Below are positions 1 to 9,016 of a stretch of DNA of 64,000 nt, piece by piece. Under the pieces are notes generated by a model. That model searched no databases and was not told the DNA's origin. It worked only from the letters and a program-made list of their open reading frames with translations. The translations under genes were made by a program, and so were the position numbers. The stretch is from Pelagimonas varians (GTDB taxonomy: Bacteria; Pseudomonadota; Alphaproteobacteria; Rhodobacterales; Rhodobacteraceae), in the NCBI RefSeq assembly GCF_003208435.1, contig NZ_QKMF01000016.1, positions 1 through 64,000 on the forward strand, written 5' to 3'. Position 1 is the first letter of the stretch; the number at the start of each line of letters is the position of its first letter.

Positions 1-666
1 CCCACCTGCCGCCTTCACCCCTTCCAGCGGGCGCATGTCGATGTTTTCGTTCACCTCAGAGTAAAGTTTCCCCAAAGCACCGGTTGCATGCAACCCAATC
101 GCCAGAACGCCGGCCATGGGCCCTACGGAAAAACAAAAGACGAAGATAAGCGCCCAGACCAGTTCAGGCACTGTACGGGCAATTTCAAGATAGCGGCGCG
201 TGATCCAAAGCACCGATTTGTTAGGCGCTAAATTGCGGGACGCAGGAAATGACAGAACGAACCCGCCAATCACACCTAGTACCGTGGCCATAAAGGCGAT
301 CAGGATCGTCTCGAAAAGTAGTTCCAGCCAGATCTTCCAGCGCCAGAACCAGTTGCCAAGGTCCGCGCCAAGGGTATCCCAACGCACAATGGGGATCGTT
401 TGCTCGATGAATTCGCCCAGTCGCGGGATGCCTGCAGAGATGATCCAGCGCCATTCGCGCGATCCGTCCTGCATCGTCACCTGCGTGACCTTGAAAAAAT
501 CGCCAATCCAGCTTGTCAGTGCGAAGACGATCAAAAATAAAACGGTGCCGATTGCCCAGCCAATGCGCATGCGGCGGCGGCGGTTTTCAAAATCAACCTC
601 GAATTGCGAGATCGGCGACGCGGCGATGGCGATATCTAATGGGTCTGGATCAGCGGTGGCGGTCAT
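1..666 (-). CDS. phnE: Phosphonate ABC transporter permease PhnE (partial, C-terminus outside window)
   Basis: Inner-membrane permease of the PhnCDE phosphonate importer. The ATG lies at 666-664 and the frame stays open to base 1, giving 222 codons without a stop. A hydrophilic N-terminus is followed by a membrane segment (IGWAIGTVLFLIVFALTSW) and further hydrophobic stretches. The last visible residues, EGVKAAGG, match the EAA loop by which ABC permeases dock onto their ATPase. It follows phnD with a gap of about 110 bp, so phnC-phnD-phnE probably form one transcription unit. The remaining membrane segments and any second permease gene lie outside the window. The family call is confident because of the ordered phn neighbours and the EAA motif. 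Confidence 0.93.
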   Translation of the reverse strand, partial: MTATADPDPLDIAIAASPISQFEVDFENRRRRMRIGWAIGTVLFLIVFALTSWIGDFFKVTQVTMQDGSREWRWIISAGIPRLGEFIEQTIPIVRWDTLGADLGNWFWRWKIWLELLFETILIAFMATVLGVIGGFVLSFPASRNLAPNKSVLWITRRYLEIARTVPELVWALIFVFCFSVGPMAGVLAIGLHATGALGKLYSEVNENIDMRPLEGVKAAGG

Positions 667-776
667 GTCCGTCCCTCGGCTCTATGCTTGGGGGTACCTA
701 TGACACAGCCCGTGCCATGGGTATTGGATGAGATAGGCGTCGAGTGGGGCCTTTGCCCCACCCTGCTTTTTCTGGA

Positions 777-1697
777 TCAGGAACCGGAACGGCGCTCTTG
801 CTTGATCCATTCGCGCATCTCAACAATCCACTCATAACGCTCTGCGTTGACACGCATAAAACCTGTATCGGGATTAGGGTCTTCGGCGGTCCACGAAGAA
901 TAGAGTTTATAGCCCTCGGGGTCTGCCGTAGGGAAGGCTTCGATCGCAGCGGTAACATCTTCGATCAGGGCTTCTGGAAGGTTGCCGCGGAACGTCCAGG
1001 GACCAGATGTAATCTCGGGGCTTTCCCAGATTTTGCAGACCAGACCGGCATCGATCATTCCTTTGTCTTCCATACGCTGGAAGACACCGTCCGCATCATT
1101 GTTCTGATAGGTTGCGGCTGTATCAAACGTCCCATTCACGACACCTGTCACACCTGCTTCGTGGCTGCCAGAAAACGTGACGGTGCCAAAATGCTCTTCC
1201 GGCTTGAAACCTTCAAGATTGACCATATTGAAATAGGGCACGGCGTAGCCCGATGTGCTGTCAGGGTCGGCAAAGGCATGAACCTTGCCCGCTGCATCCT
1301 CGAGGTTTTCAATACCGCTATCGCAGCGCGTCACAACGATAGAATAATAGCCTGTGCTGCCGTCCATTTTTTCAGATGTTAGCGTTGGTACGACGCCTCC
1401 ATTCGTGGCGGTATAGGCCGCCGCATAGGACGAAGAGCCGAGCCGCGCGATTTCAATCTGGTCAGCGGCAAGTGCCTGGATCACACCATCGTAGTTGCCT
1501 GCTGTGAAGATCTCGACTTCGACACCAAGCGTCTCGGCCAGATAAGCGCGCAATGGGTCATTGCGCATAATACGGTCCTGCTCGTTCTCGCCGGACAGGA
1601 TGCCGAATTTCAGAACTTGATAGTCATCCTGCCAACCCTCGGCGAGGGCAGAAGACGCGACCAGCAAGGCCAGAGCAGTTGTGGTAAAGAGTTTCAT
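777..1697 (-). CDS. phnD: Periplasmic phosphonate-binding protein PhnD
   Basis: Periplasmic binding protein that delivers phosphonates to the PhnC/PhnE importer. I take the ATG at 1697, giving 306 aa, because it begins a clean Sec signal peptide (MKLFTTTALALLVASSALA, then EGW) and has a GGAG ribosome site just upstream; an in-frame start at 1739 would overlap phnC and spoil the signal peptide. The mature part has the PhnD/SsuA-like features FGILSGENEQDR near the N-terminus and an ARLGSSSYAAAY segment in the ligand-binding region. It lies 38 bp after phnC. The substrate range (methylphosphonate, 2-aminoethylphosphonate or others) cannot be read from the sequence. Confidence 0.94.
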   Translation of the reverse strand: MKLFTTTALALLVASSALAEGWQDDYQVLKFGILSGENEQDRIMRNDPLRAYLAETLGVEVEIFTAGNYDGVIQALAADQIEIARLGSSSYAAAYTATNGGVVPTLTSEKMDGSTGYYSIVVTRCDSGIENLEDAAGKVHAFADPDSTSGYAVPYFNMVNLEGFKPEEHFGTVTFSGSHEAGVTGVVNGTFDTAATYQNNDADGVFQRMEDKGMIDAGLVCKIWESPEITSGPWTFRGNLPEALIEDVTAAIEAFPTADPEGYKLYSSWTAEDPNPDTGFMRVNAERYEWIVEMREWIKQERRSGS

Positions 1698-1735
1698 GGA
1701 GGTCTCCATTGGTTGAGTTGTTAAATGAATATTGC

Positions 1736-2539
1736 TCAAGCCGCGACGACAGCGCGCGCTTGGGTGGAGGTGACAGCCTCGTTGAATTCAGCGAGGCCTT
1801 TGAGCCCGTAAATTTCGCGCACAACATCGTCGGTCAGTTGTCGCGCGCTTCCATCAAAGAAGACGCGGCCGTCACGCATCGCGACAATGCGGTCACAATA
1901 AGCGCGAGCGGTATCGAGTGTATGGAGATTGACCATAACGGTTAGCCCGTCTTCGGTGTTGATCTGCTTCAACCCGTCCATCACAAGCGTGGCGTTGGCC
2001 GGATCAAGCGATGCGATAGGTTCATCCGCCAGCATAATTTTCGGCTGTTGCACCAAAGCCTTTGCAATGGCTACGCGCTGCTGCTGGCCACCCGAGAGCG
2101 TCCCCGAACGTTGCAAAGCCTGCGGGACCAGACCAAGCCGGTCGAGAGCTTGAATAGCCATCGCGCGCTCTTCATCGGTAAACCGCATCGCCATAGAGGA
2201 TAGAAAGCCGTGTTCGGCCAAGCGCCCGATCAGCACATTTGTCAGAACATCCAATCTGTCCACCAGATTGAATTGCTGAAAGATCATCGCACAATCGCGC
2301 CGCCAAGCACGCAAAGCCTTGCCCTTCAGGGACGTCACTTCGGACCCCTGAAATGAAATCGACCCCGCAGTGGGGTCGACCAAACGATTGATCAATCGCA
2401 ACAACGTGGACTTACCGGCGCCTGACCTTCCGATCACGCCAACAAACTGCCCCGGCTCAATTGACAGTGTCACATTATCAACCGCCGTGGTGTCTCCAAA
2501 TGTCCGCGTTACACCAGACAGGATCAGATTCTCAGTCAT
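1736..2539 (-). CDS. phnC: Phosphonate ABC transporter ATPase PhnC
   Basis: Cytoplasmic ATPase that powers the phosphonate importer. The 267 aa protein has Walker [10 protein letters not shown], an ABC signature LSGGQQQR and Walker [11 protein letters not shown], at the spacing and total length usual for PhnC. The ATG at 2539 has a strong AGGGGG ribosome site five bases upstream. It is the first gene of the phnCDE unit. A near-palindrome 29-44 bp upstream is shared with the phnF promoter, which suggests control by PhnF separately from the upstream phnG-M block. A gap of 79 bp separates it from the end of phnM. Confidence 0.95.
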
Positions 2540-2567
2540 ATAGGCCCCCTAAAAAACGGATGATTCT

Positions 2568-2583
2568 ATTCATCCGAATGAAT
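2568..2583. promoter_or_regulatory. Probable PhnF operator upstream of phnC
   Basis: The 16 bases ATTCATCCGAATGAAT form a near-palindrome (7 of 8 positions pair). The first 14 bases recur exactly at 9001-9014 in front of phnF. A partial third half-site (CGGATGATT) lies a few bases closer to phnC at 2558-2566. A shared inverted repeat at the two transcription-unit heads of a locus with its own GntR-family regulator is the expected picture of that regulator's operator. No binding data support this. Confidence 0.7.
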
Positions 2584-2618
2584 ATAAGGACAGCCTATCG
2601 ACGCTTTATGGCAATTAG

Positions 2619-3812
2619 TTAAACGTTCTGTAAATTCTCTTTGACAATTTCGACGGGCCCCTTTGATGGCAGATCAAGGGTGCCGTTGGCGTAGATTTTT
2701 TTCCCCTGGCGCAGCGTCAAAGCCACGTGGCCATCGGGATCAATGAGTACCAAATCCGCACGTTTTCCGACCGTGATGTCTCCCCGATCTGTTAAACCAA
2801 GCGCCTTTGCAGGGTTGGCCGTCGCGAGCCTTGCGGCACCCGCCAAACCGTTCGGATCTTGTTCTGCCAACGCCATAATGGCCGGTAGAATCGACGCAGG
2901 GTGATAGTCCGCCGCCAGAATCGACAGCAACCCCGCCGCATGCGCATCACGCGCAGACAAGTTGCCAGAATAGCTTTGGCCGCGCATTGCGTTCGGAGCA
3001 CCCATAGCAATCATCAGACCGCGCGCGGCTGCCGCCTCGGCAGCCTCAATTGTCACAGGAAATTCGCTGATCACGGCGCCGATATCCGCCATCAGATTTG
3101 CTTTCGCGACCGTATCGTCGTCGTGGCTTGCCATTGCAACGCCATGGCTCTGGCACAGGCGCGAAACGCGTTCGAGGTTATCGAGAACCTGATCCGCCGG
3201 AACAGAGGCGGCGATCCTTTCTTCGATCTGCACGCGCGCCTCCTCCATAGACACACCTTGACCATGGCTTCGGTAGGCGATGAGCTTTTCAAGGTCACGG
3301 TACTGGCCCTGCCCTGGCGTGTGGTCCATCACCGACACAAGATCGACAGCGCCAGAGCTGAGCAGCCCGTCGAGCGCCGCAATGGCATCAGTATAGGTCA
3401 CATCGAACCGGGCATGAATCCGATGATCAACGCGCAGCCTTTCGATATTGTCTTTGAGCGCGCGAATGATCTGAGACGTATGCTCAAAAGAGCGTCGTTC
3501 GTTGTCTTTGGCTGTACGCGAAAAGGACACACCCGCATAGGCTGTTGTTACACCAGATGCCGCGAGGCGAGCATCCAAGTGCCCGATTGCAACCTCCATT
3601 GGGAAATCGACACGCGGGCGGGGCTCCAGCTCTAACTCGATCATATCACCGTGCATGTCGATGAACCCAGGGAATAACCGATGTCTAGGTGTGCGCACAC
3701 TGTCCTTAACCGGCCGCTCTGAAATCTCGGCGATCAGGCCATCTTGAACGCGCACCGCGCCGTTCTGGATAAGTCGGTCTGGCAGGACGATGGAAATATC
3801 AGACAACCACAT
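2619..3812 (-). CDS. phnM: C-P lyase pathway hydrolase PhnM (ribose 1-methylphosphonate 5-triphosphate diphosphatase)
   Basis: Amidohydrolase-family enzyme that removes pyrophosphate from alpha-D-ribose 1-phosphonate 5-triphosphate before C-P cleavage (known role of the family). I take the ATG at 3812 (397 aa) because GAGGAG sits seven bases upstream; a GTG two codons earlier is too close to that site. Metal-site motifs visible are PGFIDMHGDMIE near residue 55 and SHDDDTVAKA in the central part. The last residues of phnL overlap its start by 14 bp, so translation is probably coupled. It ends the phnF-M block; no phnN follows, as phnC begins after a 79-bp gap. Confidence 0.95.
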   Translation of the reverse strand: MWLSDISIVLPDRLIQNGAVRVQDGLIAEISERPVKDSVRTPRHRLFPGFIDMHGDMIELELEPRPRVDFPMEVAIGHLDARLAASGVTTAYAGVSFSRTAKDNERRSFEHTSQIIRALKDNIERLRVDHRIHARFDVTYTDAIAALDGLLSSGAVDLVSVMDHTPGQGQYRDLEKLIAYRSHGQGVSMEEARVQIEERIAASVPADQVLDNLERVSRLCQSHGVAMASHDDDTVAKANLMADIGAVISEFPVTIEAAEAAAARGLMIAMGAPNAMRGQSYSGNLSARDAHAAGLLSILAADYHPASILPAIMALAEQDPNGLAGAARLATANPAKALGLTDRGDITVGKRADLVLIDPDGHVALTLRQGKKIYANGTLDLPSKGPVEIVKENLQNV

Positions 3813-4518
3813 CTTCACGCTCCTCTTGGGATTGGGTCTCTGGGGTCAAATCAATCTCTCGGTTGATCAACTGGGCCACGTCGCCCGGGTGGTGAAACAC
3901 ACCAATCATCGCGGTACCCTTGGCCTTCAACTCCGCCAGACGATCGATCAGCGCCGCGCGGGCAGAGGCATCTAGCGAGGCGGTCGGTTCATCCAGCAAC
4001 AAAAGCCGCTGCGGCAGGATCAGCGCCCTTGCAAGGTTCACCTTCTGCTGCTCGCCACCGGAGAAAGTCGTGGGATAGGCCGCCCAAAGCGCACGTTTAA
4101 CACCGAAGGCATCAAGCCAGTGCCGCGCTTCTTCCAACGCCTCGCCCGCCGCAACGCCAGACAGGCGCAAAGGTTCGGCCACCAAAGCCTCAGCGCTAAC
4201 GCGCGGTCGCGCGGTCAGGAATTGGGTGACAAAACCGACTTCGGTCTTGCGAAGAAAGCTGACATCTACATCTGCCGCTCGCGCCAGATCGATCACACCA
4301 TGAGACGAGTGAAACAGAATTTCGCCACTGCCGGGCAAGTATGATCGGTAGAGCGTGCGCAGCAGCGTTGATTTGCCAGCCCCGTTGCGCCCTTTCAACA
4401 GAAGGAACTCGCCTGCATGAAGCTGGAACGAGATGCCGGCGAAGGCAGCCATCTTTGTGCCCAAATGGTGCATGGTGAACCCTTTGTCGAGGTCGCGAAT
4501 ATCCAGAACAAGTGTCAT
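3799..4518 (-). CDS. phnL: C-P lyase accessory ABC protein PhnL
   Basis: ATP-binding cassette protein of the C-P lyase complex, soluble and not a transporter part. The 239 aa protein shows Walker A GRNGAGKST, signature FSGGEQQK and Walker B LLLLDEPTAS, with an H-loop region ending FHHPGD. The last four bases of phnK overlap its start (ATGA), and it overlaps phnM downstream. Known PhnL works with PhnK and PhnGHIJ in the multi-subunit assembly that makes and cleaves the ribose phosphonate. Length and order match the family. Confidence 0.94.
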   Translation of the reverse strand: MTLVLDIRDLDKGFTMHHLGTKMAAFAGISFQLHAGEFLLLKGRNGAGKSTLLRTLYRSYLPGSGEILFHSSHGVIDLARAADVDVSFLRKTEVGFVTQFLTARPRVSAEALVAEPLRLSGVAAGEALEEARHWLDAFGVKRALWAAYPTTFSGGEQQKVNLARALILPQRLLLLDEPTASLDASARAALIDRLAELKAKGTAMIGVFHHPGDVAQLINREIDLTPETQSQEEREDVVV

Positions 4519-5315
4519 AGTTTTGCATGTACCAATTGTTGCGTATAACTGTGTTGTGGGTCCTGAAAGACCTGATCGACCAGCCCCTGTTCGACCACTT
4601 GACCATGGCGCATCACCATAACCCGATCAGACAGCGTCTGGATGACACCAAGGTCATGACTGACGATAACCATGGTAATCTGTCGCTCTTGCTGGAGCCG
4701 TTTAAGTGTGTCGAGGACCAAGGCCTGCACGCTCACATCAAGGCCTGTCGTCGGCTCGTCCAGCAGCAAAAGCGCAGGTTCCAGCGCGATAGCTTTGGCC
4801 AATTGCACGCGCTGTTGCATGCCCCCCGACAGCTCGCTCGGCGGGGCGTCCATGCGTTCCAGCGGAAATTCCGACGCATCCAGCGCATCGCGGGCTTTGT
4901 CGCGCAGCACATCAAAACTGCGCTCGCCCGCGACAAGCAAGCGTTCCGCCACGTTGCCCGAAGACGAGTGGTTCATCAGCAGACCAAGATGCGGGTTCTG
5001 ATAGACGATCCCGATCTGCGTGGCGCAGAGCATCCGGCGCGCGTAGCGGTCCAGATCAAAAAGGTTCCCCTGAACATCCGGCAAGTCGAGCGAATAGCTG
5101 CCCGCGTCCGGAACCTCCTCAAGATTGAGGCAGCGCAAGAACGTTGACTTGCCTGAGCCACTTTCACCAACGATGCCAAGCACCTCACCGGGATAGACTA
5201 CCGCCGACACGTCACGAAGTGCACGCACGTCGCCGTAGGATTTGCACACATTGCGCGCCGTCAAAAGTGGCTTTGTGTCGACAAATTGGGGGGCATTCAA
5301 TGTCACCACCGTCAT
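4515..5315 (-). CDS. phnK: C-P lyase accessory ABC protein PhnK
   Basis: ATP-binding cassette protein that docks on the PhnGHIJ core through PhnJ (known for the family). The 266 aa protein has Walker A GESGSGKST, signature LSGGMQQR and Walker B LLLLDEPTTG, and resembles oligopeptide-transporter ATPases, as PhnK does. The ATG overlaps the phnJ stop (ATGA) and the end overlaps phnL, so this is part of a tightly coupled operon. It is slightly longer at the N-terminus than E. coli PhnK. Confidence 0.94.
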   Translation of the reverse strand: MTVVTLNAPQFVDTKPLLTARNVCKSYGDVRALRDVSAVVYPGEVLGIVGESGSGKSTFLRCLNLEEVPDAGSYSLDLPDVQGNLFDLDRYARRMLCATQIGIVYQNPHLGLLMNHSSSGNVAERLLVAGERSFDVLRDKARDALDASEFPLERMDAPPSELSGGMQQRVQLAKAIALEPALLLLDEPTTGLDVSVQALVLDTLKRLQQERQITMVIVSHDLGVIQTLSDRVMVMRHGQVVEQGLVDQVFQDPQHSYTQQLVHAKL

Positions 5316-6223
5316 ACCATCTCTCCGCTTTTGTACCAGGTTTCACCGACTTGTGCAGCCTCGCCATCGCGGCAGCGGATGGTTTTGACACCCAATTCGC
5401 TATCAGATACCTCATAGGTAGACGTCCCGTCACCCTGCGGGATCTCATTCATAAAGAACCCGCGCGCACCAGACCGTGAACAGGTCAGTGCTGCGTGCTC
5501 CTCAACGCGGTAAGGGACATCGTCAAACACAAGCGGTTCAACCCGCGTATAGGGGGGCACCGCGTGCAGGCGTTTTTCACGTCCAGCAGACAAGATCGTC
5601 AGGTGCGCAGCCATATCCATCTTGGGCACGTCCCAGCGCGGTATAGGTGACGGTGTCATGACAAAGCGACCATTGACGAGGCTAGGATAGCTGGCCCCCT
5701 GCATGACGCGGCCCGACCGCACGATTTGTTCGTACAGCTGCAACCACATACGCCCGTAATCTGCGTCTGCATGCATTTGCCGCGCAATAGACATGTTAGG
5801 TTGCACCGGGCGAAGTGGTTCGGGATTGGGCACCTGCAGCACAAGGATTTGATCCTCGCGCAGTTTTTCCTCAGGAATGCGGTGACGCGATTGGATCAGG
5901 TCAGCCTCAAGCGTATTCATTGTCGTTGGCGCACCTGACACCCGCGCCAGAAACTTGCGTATCGAGGCGGCATTGACGCTGTCATCTGCGCCCTGATCGA
6001 TCACTTTCACCTGCATCCCAGGATTGATCAGCGTGCAGGAGACCTGCAATCCCCCGGTGCCCCAACCGCGCGCCATCGGCACTTCGCGGCTAGCGTAGGG
6101 TATCTGGCACCCGGGCACGGCAATAGCCTTGAGCATCTTGCGCCGGATTTCACGCTTGGCCGAAGCGTCAAGGAAACCGTAAGACATCGGCTCCCACGTC
6201 TTGGTAAGGGATTTGAGGCTCAT
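5312..6223 (-). CDS. phnJ: C-P lyase catalytic subunit PhnJ, with an atypical C-terminal cysteine pattern
   Basis: Radical-SAM-type subunit that cleaves the carbon-phosphorus bond. The ATG at 6223 overlaps the phnI stop (ATGA) and gives 303 aa; an open frame continues upstream but only inside phnI. Typical PhnJ blocks are present: YGFLDASAKREIRR, RGWGTGGLQVS, KVIDQGADDSVNAASIRKF, PSPIPRWDVPKMDM and GREKRLHAVPPYTRVE. The C-terminus is odd. Where E. coli PhnJ has CAIC followed by FVCSDTDYC, this protein has CSRS (C248) and YEVSDSELG, so three of the four conserved cysteines are replaced by Ser, Val and Gly. Other cysteines are at 39, 63 and 284. I re-translated this stretch from the bases and found no frameshift. 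Confidence 0.94.
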   Translation of the reverse strand: MSLKSLTKTWEPMSYGFLDASAKREIRRKMLKAIAVPGCQIPYASREVPMARGWGTGGLQVSCTLINPGMQVKVIDQGADDSVNAASIRKFLARVSGAPTTMNTLEADLIQSRHRIPEEKLREDQILVLQVPNPEPLRPVQPNMSIARQMHADADYGRMWLQLYEQIVRSGRVMQGASYPSLVNGRFVMTPSPIPRWDVPKMDMAAHLTILSAGREKRLHAVPPYTRVEPLVFDDVPYRVEEHAALTCSRSGARGFFMNEIPQGDGTSTYEVSDSELGVKTIRCRDGEAAQVGETWYKSGEMV

Positions 6224-7296
6224 TCTGCGGGCTCCATCTGTGGCTTGACGTCGGTTTTTGAAACTGCGCGTTTGGCCTTGGCATCGCGCATCGCGTCTAG
6301 GCTGGATTGAAACGTCACGTAATGCGGCAACTTGAAGTGAATGCAAAAGCCGGAACTTTCCACGCCTTCGGTATGGTACAGAAAGAATTCCTCTTCGGTG
6401 GGCGATCCCTTGGGGGCGCCGTGGGCATTCAAATCCAGCGTCGCAGCGGCGATCACCTTGACCTCGTTCCATCCCAGCGTTGCGGCAAACCCTAGCCCCA
6501 GTTCTGTATCCTTCTTGGACACGACCTCGGCTTGGCTGACCTTGACCCGACCTGCGCTGAAGACCGTCCCGCACGGATGGCGCACACGGATGTCCGCCTC
6601 TGCCAAACGCAGTTCATTCACCGTCGGATGCGCCTGCCCGTAGCCGCGTTGCGCGGCATAGCCAAGCGCCAGAACGCCGCCTGTTTCAGCGCGGGCAAGG
6701 CTTTGCAGCGTATGGGCGCGTTTGGCGGGGAACAAAAGCGGCTCGCGGGTGACGTCGGGAATATCATTGCCAATGGCGGTGTCGGTCGTTGGCGCAGTCA
6801 GCAGGTTGTTTTCTGCCTGCCATGCCGCCACAGAAGGCTGCTGCGCCGGTGAAGGCGTCGACGCGGGATCCACCGGAACCGGCTGGAACGTGGCCCCTGT
6901 CAAAACGTCGGTGGCAAGGATGCGGTGCGCGTAATCAAGCGTCGGCCCCAAGACCTGCCCGCCAGGAATATCTTTGAACGCTGCCGAGATACGACGATGC
7001 GTGAACAGACTTTCTTGTGTAACGGGCTCCGCCACTGTCAGACGCGGCTGGGTCGTACGCCACGCCCGCAACAGCAGCACCGCCTCATAAAGCTCTCCGC
7101 CAGTTTGGGCCAGCGCAAGGGCGGCAAGATCCTCGTCATACAGCGAGGATTCGCCCATGACACGGTCCACAAGATAGGGCATCGCCGTGCGGATTTCGGT
7201 CACTCGGTTTGGCGTGATCTCGCCCATTTCCGCGCGAAACAACCGTTCGGATTGCTCGATCGCGCGTTCACCGCCGCGGGTTGCAACATATGCCAT
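6220..7296 (-). CDS. phnI: C-P lyase core subunit PhnI
   Basis: Subunit of the PhnGHIJ core, with the nucleosidase-like activity needed to couple phosphonate to ribose triphosphate (established for E. coli PhnI with PhnG, H and L). The ATG at 7296 has GGAGG seven bases upstream and gives 358 aa, starting MAYVATRGGERAI, the usual PhnI N-terminus; a longer in-frame start would run into phnH. It overlaps the phnH stop as TAATG and the phnJ start as ATGA. Family motifs include EGVESSGFCIHFKLPHYVTF near the C-terminus. Confidence 0.95.
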   Translation of the reverse strand: MAYVATRGGERAIEQSERLFRAEMGEITPNRVTEIRTAMPYLVDRVMGESSLYDEDLAALALAQTGGELYEAVLLLRAWRTTQPRLTVAEPVTQESLFTHRRISAAFKDIPGGQVLGPTLDYAHRILATDVLTGATFQPVPVDPASTPSPAQQPSVAAWQAENNLLTAPTTDTAIGNDIPDVTREPLLFPAKRAHTLQSLARAETGGVLALGYAAQRGYGQAHPTVNELRLAEADIRVRHPCGTVFSAGRVKVSQAEVVSKKDTELGLGFAATLGWNEVKVIAAATLDLNAHGAPKGSPTEEEFFLYHTEGVESSGFCIHFKLPHYVTFQSSLDAMRDAKAKRAVSKTDVKPQMEPAE

Positions 7297-7832
7297 TACA
7301 GCACCTCCACATGACAAGATCGCGGCAAACCCAGCACCTGCGCACCGTCGATCAAAAACACTTCAAACCCCATGGGGTAGCGCATCAGGCGCGCCCGATT
7401 TTGCCAAAACCCATCAGGAAGCCCCGCGACCTGCACATCGACAGGTCCGTTGCAGCCCGGACCAGAGAGACGCAGATGCACGCCCTGCCCCAGCACCGCA
7501 TTGCAAACCAGCGTCGCCCCTATTTCGGGGTAAAGATCAGAGCCGAGGTTGATTTGCTCAAGCGTGTCCGCATCGGGCAGGCTGTCGAAAAAGAGATGGT
7601 CGGCATGGTCTGACGCCACAAGCGCCGCTCCGGTCCGTGCAACACTCGAAGCCAGTGCGGGGTCGGCACAGTGGGCCTTGCATTCCCGATCCAGCAACGC
7701 CTCGATCACACCAGCCTGACCTGTTTCAGGCATGTGTCGGATCAGACCTGGCCGCGACAGCGCCCACATTAGCGCGTCATAGGTAGCGTTTGTGCGGGTC
7801 TCGAAATCCGACGGGACGGGATGGGTTGTCAT
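7296..7832 (-). CDS. phnH: C-P lyase core subunit PhnH
   Basis: Dimerising subunit of the PhnGHIJ core. The ATG at 7832 overlaps the phnG stop (TAATG) and gives 178 aa, a typical length; an in-frame start at 7934 lies inside phnG and is rejected. Recognisable stretches are FETRTNATYDALMWALSRPG at the N-terminus and RYPMGFEVFLIDG near the C-terminus. A GGAGA ribosome site precedes the start. Confidence 0.94.
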   Translation of the reverse strand: MTTHPVPSDFETRTNATYDALMWALSRPGLIRHMPETGQAGVIEALLDRECKAHCADPALASSVARTGAALVASDHADHLFFDSLPDADTLEQINLGSDLYPEIGATLVCNAVLGQGVHLRLSGPGCNGPVDVQVAGLPDGFWQNRARLMRYPMGFEVFLIDGAQVLGLPRSCHVEVL

Positions 7833-8275
7833 TAGAAGGTCTCCATGTTCACGCGGGTGGCTTCGACGCGACACAAAGTGTCGTGATCTGCAGTGGCCTG
7901 CGCGTCCGCCTCTGCCGCAAGAAAGGCCAGACACTCGGCTGTCGAAACCCCAAGCGCCACAGCGACATCAATCACGGCCATCGCCATGACTGCCTCCAGA
8001 TCGCGACCTCGGCGCATGCCGTATCCGTCTTGAGTGCCTGCCGTTATGCGGGCCTCGCTCATTAAGATTTCACCCAGATGGAAATGCGTCCCTTGGGCTG
8101 TGTCACGCATGGGCAACATCACGAGACCCGTGCGATTTTCCAAAACCTCGATCTGAGGCAGATCGGCGATCAGCGGCTCGGCAAAGGCCTTTAGCCGCTC
8201 TGCATCGGCCCTCGCCAGTGTCGACAGGACCGCGTCATGGCCCCATTCTGGCAGCACGTCCTGCGCAATCGTCAT
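7832..8275 (-). CDS. phnG: C-P lyase core subunit PhnG
   Basis: Small core subunit of C-P lyase, 147 aa. Family blocks visible are LRDTAQGTHFHLGEIL-like sequence (here MRDTAQGTHFHLGEILMSEA) and RGRDLEAVMAMAVIDVA. The start overlaps the phnF stop (ATGA), so the regulator and the first structural gene share an mRNA. The end overlaps phnH. Confidence 0.94.
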   Translation of the reverse strand: MTIAQDVLPEWGHDAVLSTLARADAERLKAFAEPLIADLPQIEVLENRTGLVMLPMRDTAQGTHFHLGEILMSEARITAGTQDGYGMRRGRDLEAVMAMAVIDVAVALGVSTAECLAFLAAEADAQATADHDTLCRVEATRVNMETF

Positions 8276-8994
8276 ATGTTGTTCTCCGTGTTAGAAATAT
8301 CGAAAGTGACGCGCGCTGCGGACCAAATCACCTCGGTGTATGCGATAGGTCTACCACTCATGTCGGCATCAATGGACTGGACAACGATCACCGGCATATC
8401 CGGATGCTGTGATAACAGCTGCGCTTCATCCGCGCGGCCCGGGCGCGCGTGCATCTGTGTGCTAGCGCGTTTATAATCCGGCACGCCATAAGACGCATAG
8501 ACCGCGCTCACCGAGCCCATAGCCTCTCGCCGTTCCGGGAAGTCCGCGAAGCGATTCGCGTCATGAAACAGGGTTCCGAAAGACACTGGCACGCCATCCG
8601 CAAAAGACCGTCTTCGCGTTGCGATGACCGGTGCGCCGAGACTGATGGCCAATGCGCCTGCAATCCTGTTCGACGCTTGCAGATGCTCAGCAGACAGCAT
8701 TTCGCTTGCCACATCGACCCCCTGCGCGTTCATGTTGCTCCGCATCCGAGTCCGGGCGCCGATCGCATAAGTCAGTCTTGGGCGAGATTGCACAAAGGTC
8801 CCACGCCCTTGCTCGACGCTCAGCAGTCCTTCTTTGCCCAACTCGGTCACTGCACGCCGGACGGAATGGCGCCCTGCTCCGTAACGCTGGGCCAATACCG
8901 GTTCAGTTGGTAGTCTTGATCCGGGTTCCAGCATGCCGCTTTCGATATCCTGTTTAATGGTTGCGCTAATGTCGCGCCAACGGTTTTTGATCAT
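8272..8994 (-). CDS. phnF: GntR/HutC-family regulator PhnF
   Basis: Probable transcriptional repressor of the phn locus. The N-terminus holds a winged helix-turn-helix (RLPTEPVLAQRYGAGRHSVR, then an RGTFV wing) and the C-terminus a UTRA-type ligand-binding domain, as in HutC-subfamily regulators. I take the ATG at 8994 (240 aa, MIKNRWRDI); an ATG at 9006 would lie within the operator palindrome. Neither start has a clear ribosome site. The near-palindrome at 9001-9016 touches the start, so autoregulation is likely. It heads the phnF-M operon. Confidence 0.92.
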   Translation of the reverse strand: MIKNRWRDISATIKQDIESGMLEPGSRLPTEPVLAQRYGAGRHSVRRAVTELGKEGLLSVEQGRGTFVQSRPRLTYAIGARTRMRSNMNAQGVDVASEMLSAEHLQASNRIAGALAISLGAPVIATRRRSFADGVPVSFGTLFHDANRFADFPERREAMGSVSAVYASYGVPDYKRASTQMHARPGRADEAQLLSQHPDMPVIVVQSIDADMSGRPIAYTEVIWSAARVTFDISNTENNI

Positions 8995-9000
8995 GGTTAA

Positions 9001-9016
9001 ATTCATCCGAATGATT
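9001..9016. promoter_or_regulatory. Probable PhnF operator at the phnF start
   Basis: ATTCATCCGAATGATT, sharing its first 14 bases with the element at 2568-2583 upstream of phnC. It sits 7-22 bases upstream of the preferred phnF start, a position suited to repression of phnF-M. Confidence 0.68.

Follow-up and report, generated by a model that had tools for sequence, protein, structure and literature searches.

The phnJ gene of the window, by which we mean the whole 64,000-nucleotide stretch of Pelagimonas varians DNA analysed here, encodes a variant C-P lyase protein from a clade that has lost three of the four cysteines of the iron-sulphur and thiyl site of Escherichia coli PhnJ and has kept the residues of the His/Zn site formed by PhnI and PhnJ. 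The best explanation, and one that we hold with equal measures of confidence and doubt, is that the variant belongs to a working C-P-lyase-like complex that would break a phosphorus bond without the iron-sulphur and thiyl site, probably at the His/Zn site and perhaps on another substrate. Given that the cluster and thiyl cysteines are missing clade-wide, the bond would be broken without the canonical cluster.

The bond-breaking mechanism of C-P lyase is an open problem, and this clade represents a natural experiment in which the cluster site has been removed and the residues of the other two sites have been kept. Many marine and soil bacteria carry a second phosphonate-breakdown operon, which may break phosphorus bonds differently. 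A literature search that covered titles, the starts of abstracts and passages, with subscription papers and preprints outside its scope, found no description of a cysteine-poor PhnJ clade. The available portions of one report distinguish two major PhnJ clades, with four cysteines in the modelled proteins, and do not describe the cysteine-poor state (PMC11978286). Portions of another suggest that some bacteria may hold multiple C-P lyase copies, perhaps plasmid-borne (PMC6852614).

The cysteine site and the retained residues

The variant PhnJ matches the Pfam PhnJ family (PF06007) over the full domain, at residues 13-277, and thus is a member of the family. It also matches the PhnJ chains of the 7z15 and 4xb6 structures over 261 residues (E=5e-82). 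When aligned with the real E. coli PhnJ (locus L176), which is our reference for residue numbering, C248, S251, V272 and G278 of the variant fall opposite E. coli C241, C244, C266 and C272. The initial annotation had compared the protein with the E. coli cysteine motifs and had proposed that CSRS and YEVSDSELG, encoded within positions 5312-5500, stand in their place; this alignment identifies the two sequences as the true counterparts and confirms that three of the four cysteines are gone. According to the sections of PMC7916636 that were available, Cys241, Cys244 and Cys266 (E. coli numbering) ligate the [4Fe-4S] cluster. The variant therefore keeps Cys241 alone among the cluster ligands and lacks the Cys272 thiyl residue, and the glycine equivalent to Gly32 is present.

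The cysteine state is all or none among the proteins compared. A total of 177 PhnJ places were found in 180 loci, and after one short piece was dropped these yielded 152 distinct sequences. The first cysteine stands alone in every variant (89/89) and in both Thermus sequences (2/2), and all four are present in each canonical PhnJ (61/61). Neither these 152 sequences nor the nine PhnJ places on a Microvirga plasmid include a protein with two or three of the four. The comparison with relatives that had been suggested as a check thus reveals that the loss is shared by the whole clade, and C244, C266 and C272 are absent from all variants examined.

Cysteines at positions 39, 63 and 284 had been put forward as possible substitutes. 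C39 is present in 87 of the 89 variants, with Tyr in the other two (L149 and L179) and in both Thermus proteins; C63 occurs in 17/86 variants, and C284 lies outside the alignment columns that hold more than two cysteines. This pattern of conservation, together with the existence of one-cysteine Thermus PhnJ proteins, leads us to reject compensation by any of the three as a general explanation. Sequencing error, chance and a pseudogene are likewise rejected, since all three site cysteines are missing in 89/89 distinct variants and the gene is under purifying selection. In variant phnJ the overall dN/dS ratio is ~0.05 and that of the site region 0.08, values that are rough because dS is near 1.4.

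Three sites have been distinguished in the E. coli enzyme. As described in the available text of two structural papers, ~30 Å separates the cluster site from the glycyl radical site, and the modelled PRcP occupies a third, the His/Zn site (PMC9947105, PMC7916636). In the former, the Zn site at which PRcP lies is made up by H328 and H333 of PhnI (with H219 in the open state) and by R107, H108, Q124 and loop 47-50 of PhnJ (PMC9947105, in part). All of these residues are kept in the variant proteins, as is the glycyl radical residue G32, and variant PhnI retains the Zn ligands H219, H328 and H333. The His/Zn/PRcP residues are identical in 89/89 variant PhnJ proteins, 87/87 variant PhnI proteins and both Thermus pairs, as in the known core complex.

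The C-terminal region carries its own signature. Across 37 aligned variants, H243, R250, M258-N259, E271, S275, K280, W296 and Y297 are invariant and new relative to canonical PhnJ. The Thermus proteins share the C-x-R-[ST]-G, N-x-I-P-Q and E-[VI]-S-D elements and the K of this motif, and H243 has no aligned counterpart in them. A structure prediction made from the 37 variants gave a mean pLDDT of 44, which is too poor to place residues, and so we make no statement on the geometry of the site.

The variant operon and the canonical cluster on the same contig

The operon occupies positions 1-9006 of the window on the minus strand in the order phnF-G-H-I-J-K-L-M-C-D-E1 (Table 1), and it therefore combines phnGHIJKLM, the genes of a core-complex operon, with a PhnCDE-type transporter. 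From phnF to phnL, adjacent genes overlap or abut with few bases between them, including the phnJ ATG, which overlaps the phnI stop codon. Relative to the E. coli PhnGHIJKL core complex (PDB 4xb6, 7z15-7z19), the variant has the same family and operon partners. It differs from the E. coli system in the new C-terminal motif and an extension of PhnJ, and in PhnG, PhnK and PhnL proteins that score below the NCBIfam equivalog cut-offs. The reading frame of phnE1 is cut at the contig end and resumes from C16:109194 onward, and phnE2 and a relative of the TIGR03308 acetyltransferase come next, at the opposite end of the contig (C16, 109,570 bases).

Table 1. Genes of the variant operon and selected residues of variant PhnJ (window coordinates)
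Feature	Position	Strand	Remarks
phnF, regulator, first gene of operon	8272..9006	-	TIGR02325 over cut-off
phnG	7832..8275	-	NCBIfam best match is the right family, below equivalog cut-off
phnH	7296..7832	-	NCBIfam equivalog over cut-off
phnI variant	6220..7296	-	Pfam PhnI, E=3.7e-106
phnJ variant, cysteine-poor clade, 303 aa	5312..6223	-	Pfam PhnJ, E=3.6e-115; PDB phmmer
phnK	4515..5315	-	best match TIGR02323, below cut-off
phnL	3799..4518	-	best match TIGR02324, below cut-off
phnM, RPnTP diphosphatase	2619..3818	-	NCBIfam over cut-off
phnC, transporter ATPase	1736..2539	-	by eye; homologues after phnM in most of 80 loci
phnD, substrate-binding protein	777..1739	-	TIGR03431, slightly under cut-off
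phnE1	1..666	-	cut at contig end
PhnJ C248	5480..5482	-	E. coli C241; sole site cysteine retained in every PhnJ examined
PhnJ S251	5471..5473	-	replaces E. coli C244 (Fe-S ligand); S 88/89, T 1/89 variants
PhnJ V272	5408..5410	-	replaces E. coli C266 (Fe-S ligand); V/I/L/A 89/89 variants
PhnJ G278	5390..5392	-	replaces E. coli C272 (thiyl radical cysteine); G 87/89, A 2/89 variants
PhnJ G38-C39	6107..6112	-	G38 is E. coli glycyl radical G32, 89/89; adjoining C39 87/89
PhnJ R113-H114	5882..5887	-	E. coli R107-H108, PRcP contacts at His/Zn site; 89/89
PhnJ Q130	5834..5836	-	E. coli Q124, contact to PRcP ribose; 89/89

This organization is conserved among relatives. The order FGHIJKLM is found in all 62 of the 80 contig loci that are at least 16 kb long, followed by C, D and E in 57/62, which agrees with the earlier statement that the rest of the operon is intact. 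When ORFs were clustered, a procedure that recovered phnJ in 68/80 loci and in which unlabelled minus-strand clusters were examined in part, the acetyltransferase was the sole common extra gene on the operon strand.

A canonical phn cluster is present on the same contig at C16:90585-98231, where a divergent phnF precedes G-H-I-J-K-L-N, a DUF1045 gene and M. Assignment of the F, G, H, K, L and M genes of this cluster relied on inspection by eye and on matches to relatives. Its PhnJ protein (C16:93,524-94,375) has four cysteines, unlike that of the variant operon, with which the cluster shares G, H, I, J, K, L, F and M. Identity between the corresponding proteins is 25% for G, 27% for H, 40% for I, 49% for J, 48% for K and 42% for L, and the whole variant complex is thus a separate lineage.

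Other features of this contig were noted in passing. Next to the phn genes, a region at L114:1366-4474 (C16:85366-88474) has Pfam matches for an MFS transporter and for a glyceraldehyde-3-phosphate dehydrogenase adjacent to a probable ArsR-type regulator (by eye), and together these genes resemble an arsenate resistance cluster of the arsJ type. At L113:15036-19111 (C16:79036-83111), inspection of the ORFs by eye revealed a further PhnC/PhnD/PhnE-like transporter set. The last 95 bases of the contig (C16:109476-109570) are identical to its first 95, and this terminal repeat points to a probable circular replicon of ~109.5 kb. Inspection by eye also revealed repABC-like genes near 54.9-58.3 kb of the window and conjugation-like genes near 10-22 kb.

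Distribution, additional PhnJ copies and PhnN linkage

The variant operon is carried by members of the Rhodobacterales and Hyphomicrobiales. A scan of genome contigs (tblastn E<=1e-3) yielded 100 relatives, of which 80 with 75-91% identity were kept; most are from Rhodobacterales, and others are from Devosia, Maritalea, Rhizobium, Nitratireductor and Paenochrobactrum. Within a same-family sample of 394 genomes, 202 have a PhnJ match and 24 carry the variant; among the matches listed, variants are 74-100% identical to the query and all others 46-53%. A similarly bimodal pattern was observed among the matches listed for the class and phylum samples, which have genomes in common and include the variant in 2/385 and 5/398 genomes, respectively. 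The nine PhnJ places noted above for Microvirga sp. VF16 are on plasmid pMVF16-1 (1.4 Mb, L179-L189), where two of the nine have the first cysteine alone and seven have all four. No relative was found in a PhnJ scan of viral contigs. A PhnJ-like stretch that is 47% identical to the query is present in a phage record (OQ572413.1, Pseudomonas phage Y12, positions 6928-7764), and this may be host DNA.

Thermus provides the sister group. The PhnJ proteins of Thermus thermophilus HB8 plasmid pVV8 (L144), a plasmid reportedly treated in a 2012 study by Ohtani that PMC5529391 cites, and of locus L147 have lost the same three cysteines, and they are 57-61% identical to the variant. Each has one cysteine in its entire chain, equivalent to C248, and Tyr where the variant has C39. 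A tree was built from 64 of the 152 sequences using columns 14-240, thus excluding the C-terminal site; it is an unrooted tree from a quick search, with SH-aLRT as its sole support measure and a long-branch warning. The variant and Thermus proteins fall on one side with SH-aLRT 93 (99 for the variant alone), and 30 proteobacterial canonical PhnJ proteins form a group with SH-aLRT 100. Four-cysteine PhnJ proteins from haloarchaea and Arthrobacter, along with the proteobacterial protein L150, lie outside both groups. A single loss of the cysteines, before the variant and Thermus lineages split, would fit these relationships best. The Thermus operon has an annotated LacI-type regulator, unlike the variant operon with its phnF, and annotations for DUF1045 and for PhnN are both absent from the cluster. 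A short TIGR03308-like protein, below the cut-off, follows phnM in L144, and close to the Thermus phn genes lies a metallophosphoesterase annotated as TIGR00282, which might replace PhnP.

Most carriers of the variant also have another PhnJ. Among the matches listed for the same-family sample, 21/24 variant genomes have a further PhnJ, compared with 178/370 non-variant genomes that have any PhnJ (Fisher p=1.9e-4, with genomes that are not independent). A second set of 46 variant genomes, drawn from the 80 loci and composed by choice mostly of named isolates, includes 43 with a full second PhnJ, one with pieces (Marivita SBSPR1, G1117) and two with none. The variant is the sole PhnJ in three genomes (G074, G1150 and G297, which is identical to G1162) and in a fourth that is 79% complete (G335), in which DUF1045 was not found and no PhnN scored over the cut-off.

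PhnN serves as a marker of the pathway, and we scored it by the TIGR02322 cut-off. A single copy exceeds it in each of the 14 genomes with both PhnJ kinds, and in the 12 of these whose canonical PhnJ place is among the matches listed, PhnN is <=4 kb away from it. Only 1/20 genomes that lack PhnJ (0/3 and 1/17) has such a protein, located at G007:C6:72084-72605. PhnN is linked to the variant operon in all three of the variant-only genomes, and DUF1045 in two of them. Among the 80 contig loci, PhnN lies within 8 kb of variant phnJ in two (L096 and L112), both from genomes that lack canonical PhnJ. The genome from which the window derives also has PhnN. Thus, each near-complete variant genome examined that has no canonical operon has a variant operon with a PhnN of its own, and such an operon sometimes occurs in other genomes too.

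A strict rule by which PhnN would lie beside the variant solely where the canonical operon is missing fails in G832. This genome has three PhnJ genes, with an intact DUF1045 gene and PhnN 3-4 kb behind variant phnJ (G832:C1:6008836-6013805). At a like place in G940, which is of the same genus and also has three PhnJ genes, the DUF1045 gene is broken and PhnN is in pieces (G940:C103:104022-108606). No PhnP match over the cut-off was obtained in any of 17 genomes, and DUF1045 is therefore the likelier phosphodiesterase; we would guess that it corresponds to rcsF. Given this assignment, PhnN and a candidate phosphodiesterase are available to the pathway.

Proposed chemistry and competing explanations

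We propose that the common ancestor of the clade lost the [4Fe-4S]/thiyl cysteine site and fixed the one-cysteine C-terminal motif. As in ordinary C-P lyase, PhnGHI and PhnM would use ATP to activate a phosphorus compound. Bond cleavage would then most likely take place at the PhnI/PhnJ His-Zn site that the variant has retained, through an ionic attack in which the ribose 2'-hydroxyl, for instance, is the attacking group. The linkage of PhnN suggests that the product, of the ribose 1,5-bisphosphate type, would be converted by PhnN to PRPP. An ionic displacement needs a better leaving group than the methyl carbanion, and so a different substrate is likely, one in which the P-X bond would be more labile than in methylphosphonate. 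The sequences themselves show the clade, its motif, the retained His/Zn residues, the operon and the linkage of PhnN, from which the ribosyl pathway, its product and a working system are inferred; the most speculative parts of this proposal are the ionic chemistry and the identity of the substrate. The all-or-none cysteine state, the tree, the dN/dS values, the operon order, the His/Zn identity, the PhnN linkage and the lack of a recurring radical-SAM-like gene beside the operon all point towards it. However, G38 and C248 never vary across the variants even though a purely ionic enzyme would have no obvious need for them, the usual presence of another PhnJ may mean that the variant depends on the canonical enzyme, and the PhnN linkage does not exactly track the absence of the canonical operon (G832 and G940). 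We put forward more tentatively, at somewhat less than even confidence, the broader view that a widespread C-P-lyase-like machine would release phosphorus at the PhnI-PhnJ His/Zn site with neither the PhnJ cluster nor the thiyl cysteine.

The constancy of G38 and C248 (89/89) makes a radical delivered in trans the strongest rival, although we judge it unlikely. According to this hypothesis, variant PhnJ is a glycyl-radical enzyme that uses G38, with C248 as the thiyl residue, and is activated by canonical PhnJ or by an unlinked activase, as in pyruvate formate-lyase. The usual co-occurrence with another PhnJ, evident in both genome sets described above, would accord with dependence on the canonical enzyme, but it may instead reflect a phosphorus-scavenging lifestyle, and the genomes compared are not independent. 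The three genomes that hold the variant alone weaken this hypothesis, since they have no canonical PhnJ that could serve as a required activase. In addition, canonical PhnJ likewise shows no change at G38, and this residue may have a structural role. The usual radical-SAM motif is CX3CX2C, and no radical-SAM-like gene recurs beside the operon; ORFs with this motif occur in 18/80 loci, where they are scattered and mostly short, and in the three variant-only stretches it is found in two short ORFs.

It is improbable, in our estimation, that the clade has instead built a different metal or cluster site for redox chemistry from C248 and residues such as the newly conserved H243, E271, D274 and S275. 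Eight of the invariant residues listed above (all except M258) could be read in this manner, and the R, N-x-I-P-Q, E-[VI]-S-D and K positions also occur in Thermus. However, H243 is unmatched there, the conserved residues may merely stabilise the fold, and the structure model is poor. We similarly consider it rather improbable that the variant complex is non-catalytic at PhnJ and serves as a scaffold, a regulator or a partner in mixed complexes with canonical PhnJ. The loss of residues described as essential and the usual presence of a second PhnJ would suit such a role, but PhnN is near the variant operon in three genomes that have no canonical PhnJ, the His/Zn site is unchanged, and each of PhnG to PhnL is duplicated and diverged to the extent seen on the P. 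varians contig (25-49% identity). That the operon is dead or decaying is very doubtful, even though three cysteines to which a necessary role is ascribed in E. coli are gone, given the low dN/dS, the number of relatives in a single scan, the intact order in all long loci and the conservation of the new motif itself. The preference for a variant active site over a dead enzyme, already voiced in the initial annotation, is therefore supported by a large conserved clade under purifying selection, by the intact operon and by the PhnN genes of the variant-only genomes.

If the ionic reading is correct, the ribosyl-activation machinery of C-P lyase would have been turned to another kind of bond cleavage, one that is non-radical. 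The htx-type system, which White and Metcalf reportedly treated in 2004, is a further comparison; it reportedly gives a single organism an additional C-P lyase operon that differs in substrate range, and its PhnJ-like protein is named HtxH. Some surveys identify phnJ by its family or KO label and read from it the use of methylphosphonate and the production of methane, as with K06163 in the available text of one study (PMC8774927). PF06007 fails to separate cysteine-poor from canonical PhnJ, and aerobic methane potential would be overstated by phnJ counts if our reading holds. In the Marivita SBSPR1 assembly, one of those examined in that study to judge from the same text, the sole full-length PhnJ found is of the cysteine-poor kind.

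The canonical cluster of Marivita SBSPR1, a metagenome assembly (L174:15241-20000 and L175; G1117:C11:87241-93245), is missing parts of phnI and of phnJ, including the four cysteines, along with phnK and the start of phnL, which represents either genuine decay or an artefact of assembly. A distance of ~3 kb separates this remnant from the variant operon, which appears to be intact.
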